A DNA stretch of 64,000 bases, from positions 733,265 through 797,264 of the forward strand of contig NZ_BBRJ01000002.1 of NCBI RefSeq assembly GCF_002090095.1. The letters are read 5' to 3'. The number at the start of each line of letters is the position of its first letter. The first letter of the stretch is position 1. The stretch comes from Demequina sp. NBRC 110053. GTDB taxonomy: Bacteria; Actinomycetota; Actinomycetes; Actinomycetales; Demequinaceae. The notes under the pieces were generated by a model, which was not told where the DNA came from, did not search any database, and worked only from the letters and a program-made list of their open reading frames with translations. The position numbers and the translations under genes were made by a program. Of this stretch, positions 23,054-39,908 are shown piece by piece.

Positions 23054-23871
23054 GTGGCTTCTCCGGGCTGTGAGGCGGGCGACTCGGCTGGCGACGCAGG
23101 CGGGGCCTGCGGGCGCGCGCGTCCATTGTCCCGTATCCAGCGCATGCCCACGAACACGAAGAACGCCCCGAACAGCCACCACTCGATCGCGTACGTCAGC
23201 GAGCGGAAGTCGAGAGACCGCTCGGCCTCAGGCTCCGGCAGCACGCGCAGGCCGGGACCGGGCTCGTGCGCGGTGAGCAGAGCCGAGTACAGCGGGCTCT
23301 CCCAGTGCTGCGCGAGCACCGCTGGCGACAGCCTGTCGGCCCAGAACGCGCCCTGCGGCGCCTGCAGGTCGGGGTCCTGTGCGGGCGCGGCGCCCTCCGC
23401 CGAGCGCATCACCCCGTCGATCCGGGTCGTCTCTGGAGCCGAGGTGTCGAATCCGGCGACGTCCTCGGGCGCGAGCCAGCCGACGACCACGGGGAGAGTC
23501 GCGGGCTCGCCCGTGCCTGTGGCATCCGCGCTCACCGCGAACGCGCGCACCACCATCACGGCCTCCGCACCGTCGACCTCGCGGCCGGGCACGAGCGCGA
23601 CGTCGGCATCGGCCCACGCGCCGTCGGCCCACACGTCGCGTCCGATCGCCGTGTCAGCGGTCGTCGCTGGAGCGGCGACCTCGGCGATCGCGACCGGCGG
23701 GTCCGGCTGGCGCACCTCGCCCTGCTCGGACGCGCGGTTCCACTGCCACATCCCCAGCGCGCCGCACACCGCCAGGGCGCCCAGCACGAGGACGGCGGCG
23801 GGAATCACGTGACCCCAGCGGATCCGTCCGGCGGCGCGCTCGGGAGGACCCTGGTCGCGCGGAGGCGTCAT
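23050..23871 (-). CDS. SURF1-like cytochrome oxidase assembly protein
   Basis: 273 aa. SURF1 proteins help insert haem a into cytochrome c oxidase at the membrane. Two terminal helices bracket an extracellular domain: the first (about 20-42) ends with the family signature GALGMWQWNRA, the second (about 228-247) lies in YAIEWWLFGAFFVFVGMRW. Middle motifs such as VVGWLAPED match the family. ATG overlaps the stop of the upstream GGDEF gene by 4 nt, and its own stop overlaps the DUF3817 start, so three genes are tightly coupled. The C-terminal tail is Pro/Ala-rich. Confidence 0.88.
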   Translation of the reverse strand: MTPPRDQGPPERAAGRIRWGHVIPAAVLVLGALAVCGALGMWQWNRASEQGEVRQPDPPVAIAEVAAPATTADTAIGRDVWADGAWADADVALVPGREVDGAEAVMVVRAFAVSADATGTGEPATLPVVVGWLAPEDVAGFDTSAPETTRIDGVMRSAEGAAPAQDPDLQAPQGAFWADRLSPAVLAQHWESPLYSALLTAHEPGPGLRVLPEPEAERSLDFRSLTYAIEWWLFGAFFVFVGMRWIRDNGRARPQAPPASPAESPASQPGEAT

Positions 23872-25058
23872 CGAGCGGAACGGCTCGCAGGAGCGGCGGC
23901 GGACGTCGTCCCGTGCGTGCCGGTCGCCGCGCGCTCGAGCGAGACGACGCGGTCGCGTCCCGCGTCCTTGGCGCGATACAGCGCCTCGTCGGCACGCAGG
24001 ATCGCGTGGTGCGGGGTGCCAGAGGCGTCGCCTTCCGTGAGACCGATCGACACCGTGACGTAGTGCTCTCGGCCGTCATGCACCACCGGCGATGAGCCCA
24101 CGCGCGACCGCACCCGCTCCATCATGATGCGCGCATCGGACATGCTCGCTCCCGGCAACACGAAGATGAACTCCTCACCGCCCCAGCGTCCCACAGAATC
24201 GCTCACCCTCAGCGCGCCGCGGAGTCGCGCACCGACGGCTGCGAGCACCGCATCGCCGCAGTCGTGCCCGAACTCGTCGTTGATGAGCTTGAATCGGTCG
24301 AGATCCGCGATCGCCAGGCAGAACGGCTCGTGCGCCGATCCGCTCAGGACCTCGAGCCGCTCCATCACCGGCCGGCGTGTCGCGAGCCCCGTGAGCGCAT
24401 CCGTGTTGGCGAGGTACTCGGCGCGGGCCGCGCTCTCGGCCGCCTCCGATCGCGCCTGCTCGGCGCGGAAGTGACTGTAGGCCGCGAGCACGAACAGCGT
24501 GCCGGCGACCAGCACCGCGTTCACGGACAGCATCGCGTTGAGAACGAGCTCCGGCAGCTCGACCTCCGCGCCTGACGAGGGCATACGGAGCTGCGCGTAC
24601 AGGAACGCTGCGAGCGCGAGTGCGGCGAACACCCACCTCAGCGCGCGCTGCCGCTCCGTGAGGATGAGGAACACCAGCTGTCCGGCGAGCAGCAGGTAGA
24701 GGTGGAGGCCCGCCTCCCACCCCACCCATGCGGTCGCGATGAGGAGCTGTCCGATCACCATCGACAGCAGCACGAGCGCCGCCGTCAGCTGACGCCCCAG
24801 CCGGGCGAGCAGCACGATCGCGACGTAGCCGATCGCGAAGCCCGAGTTGAGCGCCACGAGGCTCGAGAAGCCGGTGAAGTCGAACGTCATGAAGAACGCC
24901 GAGTACGACAGCGTCACGATCAGCCCGAACACAGCGAACGCGTGGGTGGTCGACACAGCCCGGCCAGCAGCGCCGCCCAGCCGCCCCACCTTGCGATCGA
25001 GCATGCGGTCCACGACGTCGCTCAACTGGCGCGCTCGCGCGCGGTCCCCCTGGTCCAC
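23868..25058 (-). CDS. Membrane diguanylate cyclase (GGDEF) with I-site
   Basis: Makes c-di-GMP from two GTP. 396 aa: about six membrane helices in residues 35-215, a short coiled segment (HFRAEQARSEAAESAARAEYL), then a GGDEF domain (about 225-375). The active-site loop is RWGGEEF and the preceding RVSD, five residues upstream, matches the RxxD product-inhibition site, so feedback control by c-di-GMP is expected. GTG at 25058 is the best start I see, with GGAGG rather far (10 nt) upstream. The 4-nt overlap with the SURF1-like gene couples them. Confidence 0.92.
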   Translation of the reverse strand: MDQGDRARARQLSDVVDRMLDRKVGRLGGAAGRAVSTTHAFAVFGLIVTLSYSAFFMTFDFTGFSSLVALNSGFAIGYVAIVLLARLGRQLTAALVLLSMVIGQLLIATAWVGWEAGLHLYLLLAGQLVFLILTERQRALRWVFAALALAAFLYAQLRMPSSGAEVELPELVLNAMLSVNAVLVAGTLFVLAAYSHFRAEQARSEAAESAARAEYLANTDALTGLATRRPVMERLEVLSGSAHEPFCLAIADLDRFKLINDEFGHDCGDAVLAAVGARLRGALRVSDSVGRWGGEEFIFVLPGASMSDARIMMERVRSRVGSSPVVHDGREHYVTVSIGLTEGDASGTPHHAILRADEALYRAKDAGRDRVVSLERAATGTHGTTSAAAPASRSAR

Positions 25059-25168
25059 CCTTGGTCTCCCTCCGCACGGCCCCCGTGCCCGCCTGAAGCG
25101 GATCACGGCCCCCGGCCGAGACTCCACCCTACTCAGCGAGCGGCGGCCTCTCCAGGGCAAGGCCCGCT

Positions 25169-25179
25169 CGCGCATCGGC
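25169..25179 (-). repeat. Copy of recurring 11-mer GCCGATGCGCG
   Basis: Exact copy in the 122-bp gap between the two GGDEF genes, immediately after the stop of the upstream one. Confidence 0.6.
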
Positions 25180-25180
25180 G

Positions 25181-26311
25181 CTACTGGACGGCCTCTCCCA
25201 GCGACGAGCCCACGACGAGGTTGCGACCGGAGGCCTTCGCCTCGTAGAGCATGGCGTCCGCGACCCGCAGGACCTCGTCCTTGCCCGTGTGCTGCACCGC
25301 ATGGGCGACGCCCACGGACATGGTCACCGGCTCGAGCACCGATGCGTCCGCGAACTCGGCCTCCAGCGCCCGCCGTGCGCCCTCCATGCACTCCACGCCT
25401 TCCGCGAGCGTCATCCCCGGCAGCACCACCAGGAACTCCTCGCCTCCCCAGCGCGCCACCGTCCCGCGCCCTTCGACGGCCTCCGCGAGGGTGCGGGCCA
25501 CGTGGGACAGCACCACGTCGCCGGCGCCGTGACCCAGCCGATCATTGATGCGCTTGAAGCGGTCGAGGTCCGCGAGCGCGACGCAGTGCTCGCCGTCGCG
25601 TGCCGCCTGCGTGAGCACAGGAGCCACCCCGCGGCGATTGAACACCTCGGTGAGCGAGTCCGTGCGCGCGGCCACCTCCGCGTCCGCGAGCAGTCGCTCG
25701 TTGCGCAGGCGCTCACGCATGAAGAAGTAGGTGTTGAACCACGCGAGGATCGACACGATCAGCACGACGAGCCCGACGTTGGCGATCGCGAAGGTGCGCA
25801 CCTGCTCCTGCGTGACATCGGCAGACCCGTCCTCGAACGGGCGGCTCCCGTACGTCCACACCAGCGCAGCGGTGGCGAGCGCGGTCATCGCCGCCGCCCC
25901 GGGCCACTCGCGTGGCGCGTAGAACACGAACGCGAGAGCCCCCACCGTCAGCAGCGGCAGCTGGAACCCGGCATCGACGGAGAACACCGAGGCGAGGTAG
26001 GTGAACTGCGCGATGGGGACGAGGAGTCCACCCGTTGCGGCGCTGAGGTACAGCTGGCGACGGTTGAGCTCGATGCAGATCACCCACACGCAGATCATCG
26101 CGAGGTGCGTGAGCGCGGGGGCGACGGTCGTGGGAGGGTCCGCGAGCGCGACGAAGGGCACCCACGGAAGCGAGATCAGCGCCGCCAGCAGGAAGAACCG
26201 GTTGGCGCCCATGACGGACCGAGCGCGCATGCGGTTGAGGGGCGTGACGCCTGCGTTGAGCACCCCCGTGACGGCGCGCGACACCGGCCCGCGAGCACGG
26301 GTCTTCGTCAT
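25181..26311 (-). CDS. Membrane diguanylate cyclase (GGDEF) without I-site
   Basis: 376 aa: about six membrane helices (residues 35-205) and a GGDEF domain (about 220-370) with intact active-site loop RWGGEEF and catalytic-fold motifs DLDRFKRINDRLGHGAGD. The position of the RxxD inhibitory site reads EGRG, so this enzyme should lack product feedback, unlike its neighbour. ATG at 26311 follows AAGGCGG. The two cyclases share topology and probably arose by duplication; their helices probably sense different inputs. Upstream, pta diverges. Confidence 0.92.
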   Translation of the reverse strand: MTKTRARGPVSRAVTGVLNAGVTPLNRMRARSVMGANRFFLLAALISLPWVPFVALADPPTTVAPALTHLAMICVWVICIELNRRQLYLSAATGGLLVPIAQFTYLASVFSVDAGFQLPLLTVGALAFVFYAPREWPGAAAMTALATAALVWTYGSRPFEDGSADVTQEQVRTFAIANVGLVVLIVSILAWFNTYFFMRERLRNERLLADAEVAARTDSLTEVFNRRGVAPVLTQAARDGEHCVALADLDRFKRINDRLGHGAGDVVLSHVARTLAEAVEGRGTVARWGGEEFLVVLPGMTLAEGVECMEGARRALEAEFADASVLEPVTMSVGVAHAVQHTGKDEVLRVADAMLYEAKASGRNLVVGSSLGEAVQ

Positions 26312-26549
26312 GGCGCCGCCTTGGTTCGTCGGATGGCCGCGCAGCGGGCACGCGTCGCCAACGCATCCCCCCTGGTACGGCTCCCTTCGCGCGGGAGTCA
26401 TCTGAGTCTAGGCCCGCGCCGCCCGCCGCGGAATCGACTGTGGCGCGCTGCACATGCTCCGCCGCCTGCGCGCGGGGCATCCCGGGCCCCTCACCGCGCA
26501 GGACCGTCGTCACGGGCGCCCACGTCAGGCCCATGGAAGGATGGGCAGC

Positions 26550-28622
26550 GTGGCACGGAGCATCTACATCGCGTCAGCCGAGGGCGACAGCGGCAAGTCC
26601 ACCGTCGCGCTCGGGATCACCAACCTGCTGGCCCGCACCGGCGGGCGCGTAGGCGTGTTCCGGCCCGTCGCGCGAGTCGCGGACGGCTCGGACTACGTCC
26701 TCGACCTGCTGCTGGGCCACGACGCCGTCGACCTGACCTACGAGGAGGCAGTGGGCGTCACGTACGAGGACGTCCATGACGACCCCGAGCGCGCGCTCGC
26801 CACCATCGTCACGCGCTTCCACCAGGTCGCGGCCAAGGCCGATGCGGTCGTGATCGTCGGCACCGACTACACCGACGTCTCCGGCGCGGCGGAGTTCGAG
26901 TTCAACGCCAGGATCGCCGCGAACCTCGGCTCGCCGGTCGCGCTGGTGGTGCACGGCCGCGGCCGCACTCCGGAGGAGATCGCCCGCGTGGTCGAGCAGT
27001 CGCGCGCAGAGCTGGAGGACAGCCACGCGCGAGTCGCGGCCGTGTTCGCCAATCGCTGCGACCCGGCTCAGCTGGACGCGGTGCGAGCGGTGCTTCCCGA
27101 CGGGATCGGCATGGGGGCGCTGCCCGAGGACCCCATCCTCGTCGCTCCCCTGCTGTCCGCGCTCATGGGCGCCGTGGACGGCCGGCTCGTCGCCGGCGAT
27201 GAGGCGATGCTCTCGCGCGAGGTGCGCGCGGTGCTCATCGGCGCGATGACGCCCGAGCACCTTCTCGAGCACCTGGTCGAGGGCGCGGTGGTGATCACCC
27301 CCGGCGACCGGGCGGACGCGCTCGTGACGCTGATGTCCGCTCACGCGTCCGACAGCTATCCCTCCCTCGCCGGCATCATCCTCAACGGCGGCTTCGCCAC
27401 GCCCGAGCCGGTCGCCCGGCTGGTCGAGGGGCTGGGCTCGGCACTGCCGATCATCGCGACCGACCACGGGACGTTCGGCACCGCTCGCCGCGCGTGGGCG
27501 ACGCGCGGTCGGCTGTCGCGCGAGTCCCAGCTCAAGGTGGACCTCGCGCTGGCCATGTTCGATCGCCACGTCGACACCGAAGGACTCTCGAAGGTGCTGG
27601 ATCTCGCGCGCACCGACGTCATCACTCCGCTGATGTTCGAGTACGACCTCATCGACCGCGCACGCGGCTCGCGACAGCGCATCGTGCTGCCCGAGGGCGA
27701 GGACGACCGGATCCTGCGCGCCGCGTCGACCCTGCTCACGCGAGACGTCTGCGACCTCACGATCCTCGGGACCGAGGCCACCGTCCGCAGCCGCGTTGCT
27801 GAGCTGGGGCTCGACCTGGACGCCGCCACCGTGGTGTCTCCCCACGATCCCGAGCTCGTGGAGCGCTTCGCCACGAAGTACTACGAGATGCGCAAGCACA
27901 AGGGCGCGACCATCGACGCGGCGCGCGATCGCGTGCAGGACGTGAGCTACTTCGGCACGATGATGGTGCAGCTCGGTCTCGCCGACGGCATGGTGTCAGG
28001 CGCCGCCCACACGACGGCGCACACCATCACCCCGTCGTTCCAGATCATCAGGACCGCGCCGGGCACGTCGATCGTCTCCTCGGTGTTCTTCATGTGCCTG
28101 GCGGACCGCGTGCTCGTCTACGGCGACTGCGCGGTCAACCCCGACCCCACGGCCGAGCAGCTCGCGGACATCGCCATCTCCTCGGCGGACACGGCCCAGC
28201 AGTTCCACATCGAGCCGCGCGTGGCGATGCTGTCGTACTCGACCGGCGAGTCCGGCTCCGGCTCCGACGTCGACAAGGTCAGAGAGGCGACCCGGCTGGT
28301 CCGCGAGCGCCGCCCCGACCTGCTGGTCGATGGGCCCATGCAGTACGACGCGGCCGTCGAGCCGTCGGTCGCCCGCTCGAAAGCGCCCGACTCTCCCGTC
28401 GCTGGCCAGGCGACCGTGCTCGTCTTCCCCGACCTCAACACCGGCAACAACACCTACAAGGCCGTGCAGCGCTCGGCCGGCGCGGTCGCAGTCGGGCCGG
28501 TCCTCCAGGGCCTCAACAAGCCGGTCAACGACCTCTCGCGCGGAGCGCTCGTGCAGGACATCGTCAACACCGTCGCCATCACGGCGATCCAGGCGCGGGG
28601 CCTGGACGCTCAGGAGGAATAG
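26550..28622 (+). CDS. pta: Phosphate acetyltransferase, long form
   Basis: Interconverts acetyl-CoA and acetyl phosphate. 690 aa, the long form: an N-terminal P-loop NTPase-like domain (IASAEGDSGKSTVALG, residues about 7-22), a central DRTGG domain (about 215-325), and the C-terminal catalytic domain (about 370-685) with VSGAAHTTAHTITPSFQ and FPDLNTGNNTYKAVQR. GTG at 26550 (VARSIYIASAEGDSGKS) fits homologues and follows GGAAGG by 9 nt; an ATG three codons earlier is possible. ackA follows after 3 nt. Confidence 0.96.
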   Translation: MARSIYIASAEGDSGKSTVALGITNLLARTGGRVGVFRPVARVADGSDYVLDLLLGHDAVDLTYEEAVGVTYEDVHDDPERALATIVTRFHQVAAKADAVVIVGTDYTDVSGAAEFEFNARIAANLGSPVALVVHGRGRTPEEIARVVEQSRAELEDSHARVAAVFANRCDPAQLDAVRAVLPDGIGMGALPEDPILVAPLLSALMGAVDGRLVAGDEAMLSREVRAVLIGAMTPEHLLEHLVEGAVVITPGDRADALVTLMSAHASDSYPSLAGIILNGGFATPEPVARLVEGLGSALPIIATDHGTFGTARRAWATRGRLSRESQLKVDLALAMFDRHVDTEGLSKVLDLARTDVITPLMFEYDLIDRARGSRQRIVLPEGEDDRILRAASTLLTRDVCDLTILGTEATVRSRVAELGLDLDAATVVSPHDPELVERFATKYYEMRKHKGATIDAARDRVQDVSYFGTMMVQLGLADGMVSGAAHTTAHTITPSFQIIRTAPGTSIVSSVFFMCLADRVLVYGDCAVNPDPTAEQLADIAISSADTAQQFHIEPRVAMLSYSTGESGSGSDVDKVREATRLVRERRPDLLVDGPMQYDAAVEPSVARSKAPDSPVAGQATVLVFPDLNTGNNTYKAVQRSAGAVAVGPVLQGLNKPVNDLSRGALVQDIVNTVAITAIQARGLDAQEE

Positions 28623-28625
28623 CAC

Positions 28626-29762
28626 GTGACCGTCACCTACACGGGCATCGCCCTGGTCCTCAACTGCGGCTCGAGCTCGATCAAGTACCAGGTGGTCGAC
28701 ACCACCCGGGACGAGCCGCTCGCATCCGGCCTGGTCGAGCGCGTGAGCCAGCATTCCGAGGCGATCAAGGAGATCATCGGGTCGCTGTCGGCGGCCGACT
28801 CGGGAGTGGACCTCGACGCGCTGACGGTGGTCGGTCACCGGGTGGTCCAGGGCGGCGCCGAGTTCTCCGCCCCCACCATCATCGACGACGACGTCGAGCG
28901 GCAGATCGCGCTGCTCGCGACCCTGGCGCCGCTGCACAACCCGCCCAACCTTGCGGGTATCAGCGCCGCTCGCGACGCTTTCCCGCACCTTCCTCACGTC
29001 GCCATCTTCGACACGGCCTTCCACGCGACGCTGCCCGAGGCCGCCTACACCTATGCGATCGACCGGCGGGTGGCCCAGGAGCACGGCGTGAGGCGCTACG
29101 GGTTCCACGGCACCTCGCACAGCTATGTCGCGCGCGAGACGGCGCGACTCATGGGCCGCAGCTCCTCGGACCTCTCGCTCGTGGTGCTGCACCTGGGCAA
29201 CGGCGCATCGGCCGCGGCCATCAAGGGCGGCGTCTCCGTCGACACCTCGATGGGCCTCACCCCGCTCGAGGGCCTCGTGATGGGCACGCGCTCCGGCGAC
29301 ATCGACCCGGCCGTGACGCTCCACCTCGCTCGGACGGCCGGCATGAGCATCGACGAGGTCGATGCGCTCCTCAACCGGCAGTCGGGCATGCTGGGGCTCA
29401 CGGGCTACTCGGACATGCGGGACGTCTGGAAGGCCGCGGAGCAGGGCTCACGCGAGGCGGAGCTCGGGCTCGAGGTGTACTGCCGCCGCATCCGCGGGTA
29501 TGTGGGCCAGTACTTCGCCCAGATGGGCGCCCTGGATGCCGTCACGTTCACGGCCGGCGTCGGCGAGAACGACCACCGCGTGCGGCTGCACGCCCTCGCG
29601 GGACTCGAGGCGCTCGGCATCGTCATCGACGAGGATCGCAACGACGGTCGCAAGCAGGAGCCCGCACTCATCAGCGCAGACTCTTCGAGGGTGCAGGTAT
29701 GGGTGGTCCCCACCGACGAGGAGCGGGAGATCGCCCTTCAGTCGATCGCAGCGGTGTCCTGA
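28626..29762 (+). CDS. ackA: Acetate kinase
   Basis: Converts acetyl phosphate and ADP to acetate and ATP, the energy-yielding end of acetate fermentation and of the phosphoketolase route. 378 aa. Nucleotide and substrate motifs LNCGSSSIKYQ, GFHGTSHSYVARE and LHLGNGASAAAI are intact. GTG at 28626 has AGGAGGA overlapping the end of pta, so translation is coupled. After the stop comes a dense regulatory region for the next gene rather than a terminator. Confidence 0.97.
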   Translation: MTVTYTGIALVLNCGSSSIKYQVVDTTRDEPLASGLVERVSQHSEAIKEIIGSLSAADSGVDLDALTVVGHRVVQGGAEFSAPTIIDDDVERQIALLATLAPLHNPPNLAGISAARDAFPHLPHVAIFDTAFHATLPEAAYTYAIDRRVAQEHGVRRYGFHGTSHSYVARETARLMGRSSSDLSLVVLHLGNGASAAAIKGGVSVDTSMGLTPLEGLVMGTRSGDIDPAVTLHLARTAGMSIDEVDALLNRQSGMLGLTGYSDMRDVWKAAEQGSREAELGLEVYCRRIRGYVGQYFAQMGALDAVTFTAGVGENDHRVRLHALAGLEALGIVIDEDRNDGRKQEPALISADSSRVQVWVVPTDEEREIALQSIAAVS

Positions 29763-29791: not shown

Positions 29792-29807
29792 TGTGACAAA
29801 TGCCACA
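29792..29807. promoter_or_regulatory. CRP/FNR-superfamily-like operator
   Basis: TGTGACAAATGCCACA matches the CRP/GlxR half-sites (TGTGA-N6-TCACA) with one mismatch. It is 37 bp upstream of a -10 (TACTCT, 29841-29846), on the promoter of the phosphoketolase-like gene. Confidence 0.5.
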
Positions 29808-29820
29808 TAAACGGGTTCCC

Positions 29821-29838
29821 GTGTGCGATAACGCACAC
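29821..29838. promoter_or_regulatory. Perfect dyad in promoter spacer
   Basis: GTGTGCGATAACGCACAC: 7-bp perfect arms around ATAA. It lies directly before the TACTCT -10, that is, in the spacer, and its centre is 30 bp from the centre of the CRP-like site. It also keeps TGTG-N8-CACA. Confidence 0.6.
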
Positions 29839-29894: not shown

Positions 29895-30659
29895 GTGATC
29901 GACGTGACCACCTGGACCGCGCACTTGACGCGAGAGCCGGATGACTCCTTCCTGAGCGCCATGGACCGGCGTTGGCGCGACGGCCTCGCCTCGCCTGTCG
30001 CGCAGTGCGCCTGGAGCCGCTGCCCTCTGCACACGCTCGCCCTGCTGCACCTCGATCGGGCCGCACACAAGCGCCGCCTGCACGCGCGCTACTTCGGCGC
30101 GGGCTCCTGTGAGGTGACCGGCCACGGATTCACGCCCATGTCCGACCTCATCCCAGGAGACAAGTACGGCCCCGAGTGCATCGATGTCGCCCACGTCGGC
30201 TCGGCGTCCACTTTGGCCGCGGCGATCGCCGCGATCAAGGAGGACAGGCACCTGCTGGCCTGCGCCGTCGTCACCGAGGCGCAGTTCGTCGCGATCGACA
30301 CCTTCGACGACCACTCTGCGGCGCTGCTGAGGCCCGGTTCCCACGGCGCCATCGTTCCGTTCGTGTACGCCGCCGAGGACGAGTCGGAGGACGAGGCGTG
30401 GGAGCGCGAGGATCTGCTGCGCGCCAACGGCTACTCGACGTACACCGTGGACGTCTCGTCGATGGGCGACGACCCCCTCGCGGTCCACCGCAACCTCGCG
30501 GGCCTCATGGAGGACGTCCTCGACGAGATCGCGAACCTCAAGGCGGACGCCGCCGCGAACATCGCGTCGGACGGCGCACTGTGGCCCCTGATCGTGGTGC
30601 GCGCGCCGGACAGCTGGAACCCTGCGCTGGCCACGGACCGCGCACAGTCCCACCGCTGA
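29895..30659 (+). CDS. Phosphoketolase N-domain-like protein lacking ThDP motifs
   Basis: 254 aa. Residues about 147-242 align with residues about 200-301 of the true phosphoketolase encoded at 37452: AGLMEDVLDEIANLKADAA against [19 protein letters not shown], then LWPLIVVRAPDSW against [13 protein letters not shown]. Weaker similarity reaches back to CPLHTLALLHLD ([11 protein letters not shown]). The thiamine-diphosphate motifs are gone: HWGTTPG is replaced by [15 protein letters not shown] by TEAQFVAID, and the HGGPG loop and the whole C-terminal half are absent. It therefore cannot be a normal phosphoketolase. Position right after ackA, under its own dyad-rich promoter, suggests a regulatory or binding role in the acetyl-phosphate pathway. 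GTG at 29895 has only a weak AAGG upstream; start uncertain. Confidence 0.75.
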   Translation: MIDVTTWTAHLTREPDDSFLSAMDRRWRDGLASPVAQCAWSRCPLHTLALLHLDRAAHKRRLHARYFGAGSCEVTGHGFTPMSDLIPGDKYGPECIDVAHVGSASTLAAAIAAIKEDRHLLACAVVTEAQFVAIDTFDDHSAALLRPGSHGAIVPFVYAAEDESEDEAWEREDLLRANGYSTYTVDVSSMGDDPLAVHRNLAGLMEDVLDEIANLKADAAANIASDGALWPLIVVRAPDSWNPALATDRAQSHR

Positions 30660-37309: not shown

Positions 37310-37320
37310 GCCGATGCGCG
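37310..37320 (+). repeat. Copy of recurring 11-mer GCCGATGCGCG
   Basis: Exact copy in the divergent region between the SDR gene and xfp; a second copy in opposite orientation lies 84 bp away. Confidence 0.6.
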
Positions 37321-37451: not shown

Positions 37452-39908
37452 ATGACGGGCACGGCTTGGCGCACACGTACGAGCGACGCGGCGTCGCCCG
37501 ACGAGATCGGCGCGGTCGACCGCTGGTGGCGCGCCACGAACTACCTGAGCGTCGGGCAGATCTACCTGCTGGACAACCCGCTGCTGCGCGAGCCGCTGCA
37601 CCGCGACCACGTCAAGCCGCGCCTCGTGGGCCACTGGGGCACCACCCCTGGCCTGAACTTCCTGTACGCACACCTCAACCGCATGATCAAGGCGCGCCAG
37701 CAGGAGACGATGTACGTGATCGGCCCCGGCCACGGGGGGCCCGGGCTGATCGCCTCCAGCTACCTGGATGGCACCTACACCGAGACCTATCAGGACATCA
37801 CCTACGACGAGGCCGGCGTCCAGAAGCTGTGCAAGCGATTCTCGTTCCCCGGCGGCGTGCCGTCCCACGTGGCCCCGGAGACGCCAGGATCGATTCACGA
37901 GGGCGGCGAGCTGGGCTACTCCCTGTCCCACGCGTATGGCGCCGCCTTCGACAACCCCGACCTGCTCGTGGCCACGATCGTGGGCGACGGCGAGGCGGAG
38001 ACGGGCGCGTTGGCGACCGGCTGGCACTCGAACAAGTTCGTGCACCCCGTCACCGACGGCGTCGTGCTGCCGATCCTGCACCTGAACGGCTACAAGATCG
38101 CGAATCCCACGCTTCTGGCGCGCATCGGCGAGGATGAGCTGGACGCCCTGATGCGGGGCTACGGCCACAAGCCGCACGTGTTCACCGCTGGCTTCGACGA
38201 TGAGTCCCACGAGTCGATCCATGGTCGGTTCGCGGCGCTGCTCGACGACGTGATGGACGAGATCGCCGCGATCAAGGCTGAGGCCGCGGACGACCCGGAC
38301 ATCGAGCGCCCCCTGTGGCCCATGATCGTGTTCCGTACGCCGAAGGGCTGGACCTGCCCCGCCGAGATCGACGGCGAGAAGACCGAGGGATCATGGCGTG
38401 CCCACCAGGTGCCGCTGTCGAGCGCCCGCGACACCGATGAGCATCTGCAGGTCCTCGAGGACTGGCTGAGGTCGTACCGCCCTCACGAGCTGTTCGACGA
38501 GGACGGCGCACTGAAGCCCGAGACCATCGAGATCGCACCCCAGGGTCACCTGCGCATGTCCGCCTCGCCGCACGCGAACGGCGGCTCCGTGCTGCGGGAT
38601 CTGCGGATGCCGGACTTCCGCGACTTCGCCGTGGACGTGCCGAGCCCAGGCTCCGGTCCTGCCGAGGCGACCAAGCAGTTGGGCGAGATGCTGCGGTCCG
38701 TGGTCGAGATGAACCCCGACAACTTCCGCATCTTCGCCCCGGACGAGCTCGCCTCGAACCGTCTCCAGGCGGTGCTCGAGGTCACGTCGAAGGTGTGGGA
38801 GGGCGAGCGTGAGGACGATGGCACCCATACGGGTCCCAGCGGCCGCGTGCTGGAGATGCTGTCAGAGCATCAGTGCCAGGGCTGGCTCGAGGGCTACCTC
38901 CTCACCGGTCGCCACGGCCTGTTCACGTCCTACGAGGCGTTCGTCCACATCATCGACTCGATGTTCAACCAGCACGCGAAGTGGCTCAAGGTGTCGCGCG
39001 AGCTGCCATGGCGGCTGCCCATCGCGTCCCTGAACTACCTGCTGTCCAGCCATGTGTGGCGCCAGGATCACAACGGCTTCTCCCACCAGGACCCGGGCTT
39101 CATCGACCACGTAGTCAACAAGAAGGCGGAGATCGTGCGGGTGTACCTGCCGCCGGACGCGAACACGCTGCTGTCGACCTACGACCACTGCCTGCGTTCG
39201 CGCGACTACGTCAACGTGGTCATCGCGGGCAAGCAGCCGCAGGCGCAGTGGCTGACGATGGAGGAGGCGATCGACCACTGCACGCGAGGCCTGGGAATCT
39301 GGGACTTCGCCTCCTCCGTGCCGCTGGGCGAGGAGCCGGACGTGGTGCTCGCGGCCGCGGGGGACGTGCCCACGATCGAGGTGCTCGCGGCGGTCGACAT
39401 CCTGCGCCAGGAGCTGCCGGATCTGAAGGTGCGCATGATCAACGTCGTGGATCTCATGCGGCTGCAGCCCGACGAGGAGCACCCCCACGGTCTTCCCGAG
39501 CGGGAGTTCGACCACCTGTTCACCACGAACAAGCCGATCATCTTCAACTACCACGGCTACCCGTGGCTCATCCATCGCCTCACGTACCGGCGCAACGGTC
39601 ACCAGAACATCCACGTGCGCGGATACAAGGAGGAGGGCACCACCACCACGCCATTCGACATGGCGATGATGAACGACATCGACCGCTACCACCTGGTCAT
39701 GGACGTCATCGACCGCGTGCCGCACCTCGGCTCGCGCGCCGCGTCGCTGCGTCAGGACATGCATGACCGGCGTCTCGCGGCGCGCAGGTACGCGCGCGAG
39801 CACGGCACGGACATCCCCGTGGTCCGCGACTGGGTGTGGCCGGATGCGGACGAGAGCACCAGGCAGGCGATGCAGGGCACGCAGTCCACGGGCGGTGACA
39901 ACGACTAG
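37452..39908 (+). CDS. xfp: Xylulose-5-phosphate/fructose-6-phosphate phosphoketolase
   Basis: Thiamine-diphosphate enzyme that splits xylulose-5-P or fructose-6-P to acetyl phosphate plus glyceraldehyde-3-P or erythrose-4-P. 818 aa, normal length. XFP N-domain motifs [10 protein letters not shown] (about 61-70), GPGHGGPG (91-98), ThDP/Mg site GDGEAETG (178-185), then [10 protein letters not shown]; central and C-terminal domains with [14 protein letters not shown] and [15 protein letters not shown] at 37452 has GGAGG 5 nt upstream; the frame is open further upstream but lacks family similarity. Its product feeds ackA and pta at 26.5-29.8 kb. The upstream region carries two copies of the 11-mer motif. 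Confidence 0.97.

Follow-up and report, generated by a model that had tools for sequence, protein, structure and literature searches.

Immediately downstream of ackA, the window (the whole 64,000-nucleotide stretch of Demequina DNA analysed here, from a 2.5 Mb source genome in three contigs) contains a short gene (29895-30659, + strand), which encodes a phosphoketolase N-domain of the PP (phosphate-binding) type lacking the thiamine diphosphate (ThDP)/Mg site and both other domains of the enzyme. This is a real gene, which part of the genus Demequina maintains under purifying selection, and it occupies the slot after pta-ackA that in many relatives is taken by the phosphoketolase gene xfp itself. 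The descent of its product from the Xfp N-domain is secure. What the protein does is a matter of interpretation, and the explanation that we tentatively prefer is that it may be a non-catalytic paralogue acting on Xfp.

A phosphoketolase N-domain without its cofactor site

The short protein has 254 residues (GTG start), compared to about 820 in Xfp/Xpk, and represents the first third of that enzyme. A reading made from the DNA sequence alone had described it as a pseudoenzyme derived from the Xfp N-domain, on the basis of a likeness between its C-terminal 96 residues and the full-length Xfp of the window, and had proposed comparison with the XFP_N profile and structure prediction as checks. 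The identities counted in that reading, 12/19 across AGLMEDVLDEIANLKADAA and 8/13 across LWPLIVVRAPDSW, were confirmed by eye. In Pfam the protein matched XFP_N (PF09364) above the cut-off (E 3.1e-10, 39.9 bits, cut-off 23.7), with residues 106-242 on positions 145-285 of the profile, and each of the 19 full-length short proteins of the genus gave a hit to this family with an E-value no higher than 0.1, the lowest being 3.4e-13. The likeness is real, but it extends far beyond the C-terminal part: because a profile-profile alignment with 14 Xfp N-domains (hhalign, E 1.2e-25) covers residues 4-245, the whole protein is, judged by sequence, the counterpart of the Xfp N-domain. A PDB search with the profile of the 19 relatives, in which E-values as high as 10 were allowed, found only phosphoketolases (9 distinct sequences, best 1.9e-14).

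Apart from XFP_N, no Pfam or NCBIfam family was above its cut-off in the search with the short protein. The NCBIfam phosphoketolase models reached at best 46 bits, the cut-off for full-length enzymes being 962, and a KCT2 match (E 0.092) was under its Pfam cut-off. Other Pfam matches among the 19 proteins were to DUF7158 in three (best E 0.0019) and, more weakly, to KCT2 in two and DUF7351 in one. Neither the middle (PF03894) nor the C-terminal (PF09363) phosphoketolase domain was found by Pfam in the 254 residues, in agreement with the earlier statement that the C-terminal half is missing. PADLOC, with two of the 19 short proteins searched, gave no match.

The AlphaFold2 model, built from the 19 sequences, had a mean pLDDT of 88.2 and a pTM of 0.88. 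The first 19 Foldseek matches of this model were all phosphoketolases. In a second structural comparison 3ahi was the best match (Z 18.1, rmsd 3.5, 225 residues aligned), residues 2-254 of the model superposing on residues 5-326 of the 3ahi chain, and 13 phosphoketolase entries (Z 14.5-18.1; 16-20% identity across 208-232 aligned residues) ranked before the first other family (Z 10.6). Structure prediction thus placed the protein in the phosphoketolase fold and not in an unrelated one.

To see what was lost and what was kept, the 19 short proteins were compared with 25 Xfps (18 of the genus and 7 others), using B. breve numbering transferred by an alignment that is uncertain near the shortened loops of the short proteins. 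Positions fixed in all 25 Xfps but lost in the short proteins are H64, H142, G155, GDG, N215 and Y217. H64 is replaced and H142 deleted in every short protein, and G155 is still G in 4/19. The Mg/ThDP motif is absent from all 19, with GDG changed to T/S-E-x and N215 to P, A or S, and the reported absence of GDGEAETG was thus borne out. Glu128 stands, again in 19/19, in place of the Mg-binding Asp of Xfp, so that a carboxylate is kept there. A His-Gly is aligned at H97 in all the short proteins; H64, H97 and H142 are presumably the N-domain histidines with roles in phosphoketolase. The HGGPG loop had been described as absent as well, and this was only partly so: its His-Gly aligns with the invariant His77-Gly78, but the rest of the loop does not align. 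Residues fixed in Xfps and kept in the short proteins include H52, R55, H77, G78, H100, H198, D210 and P231, among others. In fold, in the order of its elements and in these scaffold residues the short protein is therefore like the N-terminal PP domain (PF09364) of Xfp/Xpk.

The idea of a rebuilt active site, by which invariant residues should cluster in the former ThDP loops, was dropped after the invariant columns were counted, 7/63 in the loops of the former cofactor side vs. 4/44 in the opposite ones (Fisher p 0.50; loop classes assigned from DSSP order, not from coordinates). In the model the helix following GDGE, which we take to belong to the normal PP-Pyr contact, is interrupted: residues 128-131 form one helix, and a further stretch of three residues lies near 138. 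This speaks against a plain swap of the short protein into the Xfp dimer.

Place, distribution and selection

The short gene follows a long-form pta (26454-28622, + strand; PF01515 PTA_PTB, E 1.2e-134, with DRTGG and AAA_26) and ackA (28626-29762, + strand; PF00871 Acetate_kinase, E 2.4e-141). The pta coordinates are those of the open reading frame, whose start is uncertain, and 26544 was taken as the start in the searches. From the ackA stop to the GTG start of the short gene there are 132 bp; in 17 relatives the codon at or near the aligned start is ATG in 12, GTG in 2 and TTG or CTG in 2 to 3. The full-length xfp, which represents the parent family, is at 37452-39908 (+ strand), a start inferred from alignment in a frame opening at 37314; PF09364, PF03894 and PF09363 all match, and its N-domain matches 3ahc with E 5.4e-172. 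Upstream of pta there are two overlapping minus-strand frames (23868-25391 and 25181-26401), both with a GGDEF domain (E 2.1e-37 and 6.7e-35), the first also with a MASE7 sensor domain.

With ten proteins of the window as queries, we surveyed the neighbourhood in 44 Demequina genomes, the window's own and 43 others (G001-G043). The short gene is present in 18 of them, and in all 18 it is the next recognised gene 3' of ackA, at a distance of 119-374 bp by match ends. In the 16 carriers with xfp in the fetched region, xfp is 4.6-14 kb downstream; in G007 and G021 it is on other contigs. For the 26 genomes without the short gene, the distance between ackA and xfp is at most 500 bp in 14, 1.7-28 kb in 8 and indeterminable in 4 (G005, G013, G019, G023). 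G018 has a second, 63% identical xfp (contig C1, 2949905-2952274, minus strand), whose match contains a single in-frame TGA.

In a pta+ackA tree (midpoint-rooted, the root not inferred; G013 left out; support of the carrier split not printed) all 18 carriers are on one side, together with 5 non-carriers (G005, G008, G009, G035, G042). This distribution fits a single origin and a few losses. In the Xfp tree, from which the xfp rows of G008 and G009 were dropped as their best match began too late, the short proteins group together with 100/100 support, and the stem leading to them has in all about 2.7 changes per site. This tree gives them no firm position among the Xfps, with long-branch effects likely. 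A local duplication of xfp would be the origin suggested by place and distribution.

The sequence-only reading had also proposed a survey for short XFP_N proteins beside ackA. They were found in Demequina, on one side of the tree, but nowhere else among the genomes searched. No short form was present in 105 relatives outside the genus, where all matches listed were in frames of at least 767 aa. Across 396 genomes of the phylum (the window's own included), with up to six candidates scored per genome, the non-window matches were in frames of 406-1416 aa, a frame of 658 aa (G509) among them. A contig search, confined to close relatives, gave 9 loci, all from Demequina, and neither plasmids nor viral contigs yielded a short form. 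The 406-aa frame, from a distant actinobacterium (G279), has the N-domain only and was tried as a relative of the short protein; it was rejected as an interrupted ordinary xfp, since it keeps GDGEAETG and HGGPG and since the xfp middle and C-terminal domains are about 8 kb from this N-domain (C10:80000-86000), on the same strand.

We collected 19 full-length copies of the short gene from 16 genomes, with mutual identities of 31-95%. In G003, G018 and G032 two diverged copies stand in tandem. The ackA-adjacent copy is the more conserved one when G003 is compared with G032 (95% vs. 83% identity), yet it is on a long stem (1.02) in the Xfp tree. The dN/dS of the short gene was 0.02-0.38 in 11/11 pairs (Nei-Gojobori, own script), the ratios being rough in the 6 pairs with dS >1, which include the 0.02 pair. 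In five genome pairs the values were 0.04-0.13 for ackA and 0.04-0.19 for xfp. In four of these the short gene was above both; in the pair G003/G032 one short copy (0.062) was between ackA and xfp and the other (0.020) below both. In G041 the short copy is broken, as are pta, ackA and xfp in this assembly (50% complete); the copy of G007 is incomplete, cut off at a contig end.

The state of xfp was compared between carriers and non-carriers. It is one open frame in all 17 adequately assembled carriers. Of the 5 non-carriers on the carriers' side of the tree, G035 and G042 have an intact xfp, while no xfp was found in G005 (85% complete). In G008 and G009, two otherwise well-assembled genomes with pta, ackA and the ABC-F gene each in one piece, xfp has a frameshift within the N-domain, which may be a sequencing error. 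Among the remaining genomes, G041 is the only one with a broken xfp, and G013 has a fragment of it. On the carriers' side of the tree the short gene is associated with intact xfp (Fisher p 0.0065, or 0.029 without G005, kinship being ignored in both values), with about three loss events if G005/G009 and G035/G042 are each counted once. The association is suggestive only, because the losses are few, the genomes are related and xfp is intact in G035 and G042.

The region upstream of the short gene

About 88 bp before the start codon there is a Crp/GlxR-type palindrome, TGTGACAAATGCCACA (29792-29807, + strand). A similar palindrome (TGTGR-N6-YCACA-like, 8-10 of 10 positions matching) was found 88-118 bp before the start in 14 of the 18 carriers; in the other four (G003, G018, G032, G007) no Crp-type site is at that place. 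When all 1024 palindromic half-sites were examined, only TGTGA and the overlapping GTGTG occurred in at least 14 genomes within a 31-bp band. In single-genome shuffles P was 0.05-0.08 in 3 of the 14. The palindrome resembles the GlxR consensus TGTGANNTANNTCACA (PMC4254451).

Counting sites with at least 8 matches, we found them in 2/14 ackA-xfp gaps and in 18/39 regions upstream of pta, so by sequence pta may share its regulator with the short gene. Displaced xfp genes, taken from carriers as well as non-carriers, had no such site in their 250-bp upstream regions (0/23), and the short gene and xfp are thus not obviously co-regulated by it. In the source genome (G000) the pattern occurs at 10 places vs. 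6 for the reversed control. A Crp-family profile gave seven matches in this genome, one of them above the cut-off; the Crp-family protein matches Crp/Fnr-family structures with E 2e-68 to 3e-67, and we take GlxR to be among these structures.

A simple scan of the gap between ackA and the short gene, in the window and in G015, revealed neither a sigma-70-like promoter nor a terminator. By eye, the corresponding gaps of G015, G041 and G007 contain strong inverted repeats, possible ackA terminators. Just 3' of the Crp-type site the window has a second perfect palindrome, GTGTGCG-ATAA-CGCACAC (29821-29838), which, also by eye, is absent from the aligned gaps of relatives.

Possible roles of the short protein

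The description of the short protein as a pseudoenzyme derived from the Xfp N-domain has held up with respect to profile, fold, neighbourhood and selection. From its descent, the loss of its site, the selection on it and its place, we infer a partner and a mechanism. Keeping the N-domain scaffold without the cofactor site, the protein would bind Xfp at a subunit or a dimer-dimer interface; once bound, it would change the amount or the working of the active Xfp oligomer, and with it how much acetyl phosphate reaches AckA and Pta. The amount of the short protein would be set separately from xfp, by a Crp/GlxR-type regulator. Acetyl phosphate is common to Xfp, Pta and AckA, a branch point used in the design of carbon-conserving pathways. 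The suggestion of the sequence-only reading that the protein may regulate or scaffold acetyl-phosphate metabolism would fit both the fixed place of the gene after pta-ackA and the pattern of xfp loss. From the longum octamer (PMC10365998) it follows that an N-domain-only paralogue has surfaces for possible binding.

Human TKTL1 offers a comparison. According to two reports (PMC6555833; PMC3485151), this paralogue of transketolase, a thiamine-dependent sugar enzyme, lacks 38 active-site residues in a deletion that removes part of the cofactor-binding N-domain, and it forms heterodimers with transketolase and alters its activity. A deletion of this type, in the ThDP-binding part of the N-domain, is present in the short protein. 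TKTL1 however keeps the rest of the enzyme, which the short protein does not, and the origins of the two are separate; the activity of TKTL1 itself is disputed (PMC6334435). The two would work alike only if our preferred explanation is right. In that case the short protein would be a natural regulator that is made from the Xfp N-domain and tunes Xfp, a bacterial parallel to TKTL1. In its fullest form the proposal reads that the short protein is the first phosphoketolase pseudo-subunit, a copied Xfp PP domain which lacks the cofactor, is under Crp/GlxR control, docks on Xfp and tunes acetyl-phosphate output, having arisen once within Demequina, duplicated and diverged in some species, and been lost when xfp decays; so much taken together is doubtful. 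In the open-licence literature we found no regulator of such kind for phosphoketolases and never Demequina and phosphoketolase together, and the one naming of XFP_N was in a table of Pfam families (PMC4241727).

A somewhat less probable alternative is that the protein works away from Xfp, as a ligand-binding sensor or adaptor that takes up acetyl phosphate, a sugar phosphate or a similar phosphorylated metabolite on its rebuilt cofactor side and acts on AckA, Pta or another protein. The adjacency to ackA in 18/18 carriers and the many invariant charged residues and histidines (Glu128 in 19/19, His77, His140, Arg171-Glu172) are in its favour, but the loops of the former cofactor side show no enrichment of invariant columns over the opposite loops (7/63 vs. 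4/44, p 0.50), and the pattern of xfp loss would have to be a coincidence. It is rather improbable that the protein is a small enzyme whose new activity is independent of thiamine diphosphate. The invariance of His, Glu, Arg and Lys residues across proteins down to 31% identity, and the tandem diverged copies of three genomes, would suit such an enzyme; against it, XFP_N was the sole Pfam family above cut-off, with none in NCBIfam, and we know of no PP-type fold that catalyses on its own.

Very little probability goes to the short protein being one half of a split thiamine-dependent enzyme with the Pyr half in another protein. A PP domain on a separate chain does form one half of such enzymes, as in the split-gene transketolase 6yak, whose chain AAA was in the fold list (Z 10.3). 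6yak is, according to the title of the entry, an active alpha2beta2 heterotetramer, whereas the short protein lacks the cofactor-binding residues, and no partner half was found in the genome: there is no lone XFP middle domain (the single match is the full xfp), and of four Transket_pyr matches elsewhere, three belong to frames 625-1299 aa long, and the fourth, which alone has a short frame (442 aa), is E1-beta-like, with its own E1-alpha-like gene adjoining (by eye).

That the short gene is a decaying remnant of an xfp copy once located 3' of ackA, akin to the frameshifted remnant that the sequence-only reading had named as a refuting outcome, is barely credible: it does occupy the slot filled by xfp in 14/26 genomes of the genus without it, and it has seemingly been lost several times, but the frames are open and conserved in 19 full-length copies from 16 genomes, dN/dS is low in every pair, the upstream site is conserved, and the two defective copies stand in the poor assembly of G041 and at the contig end in G007.
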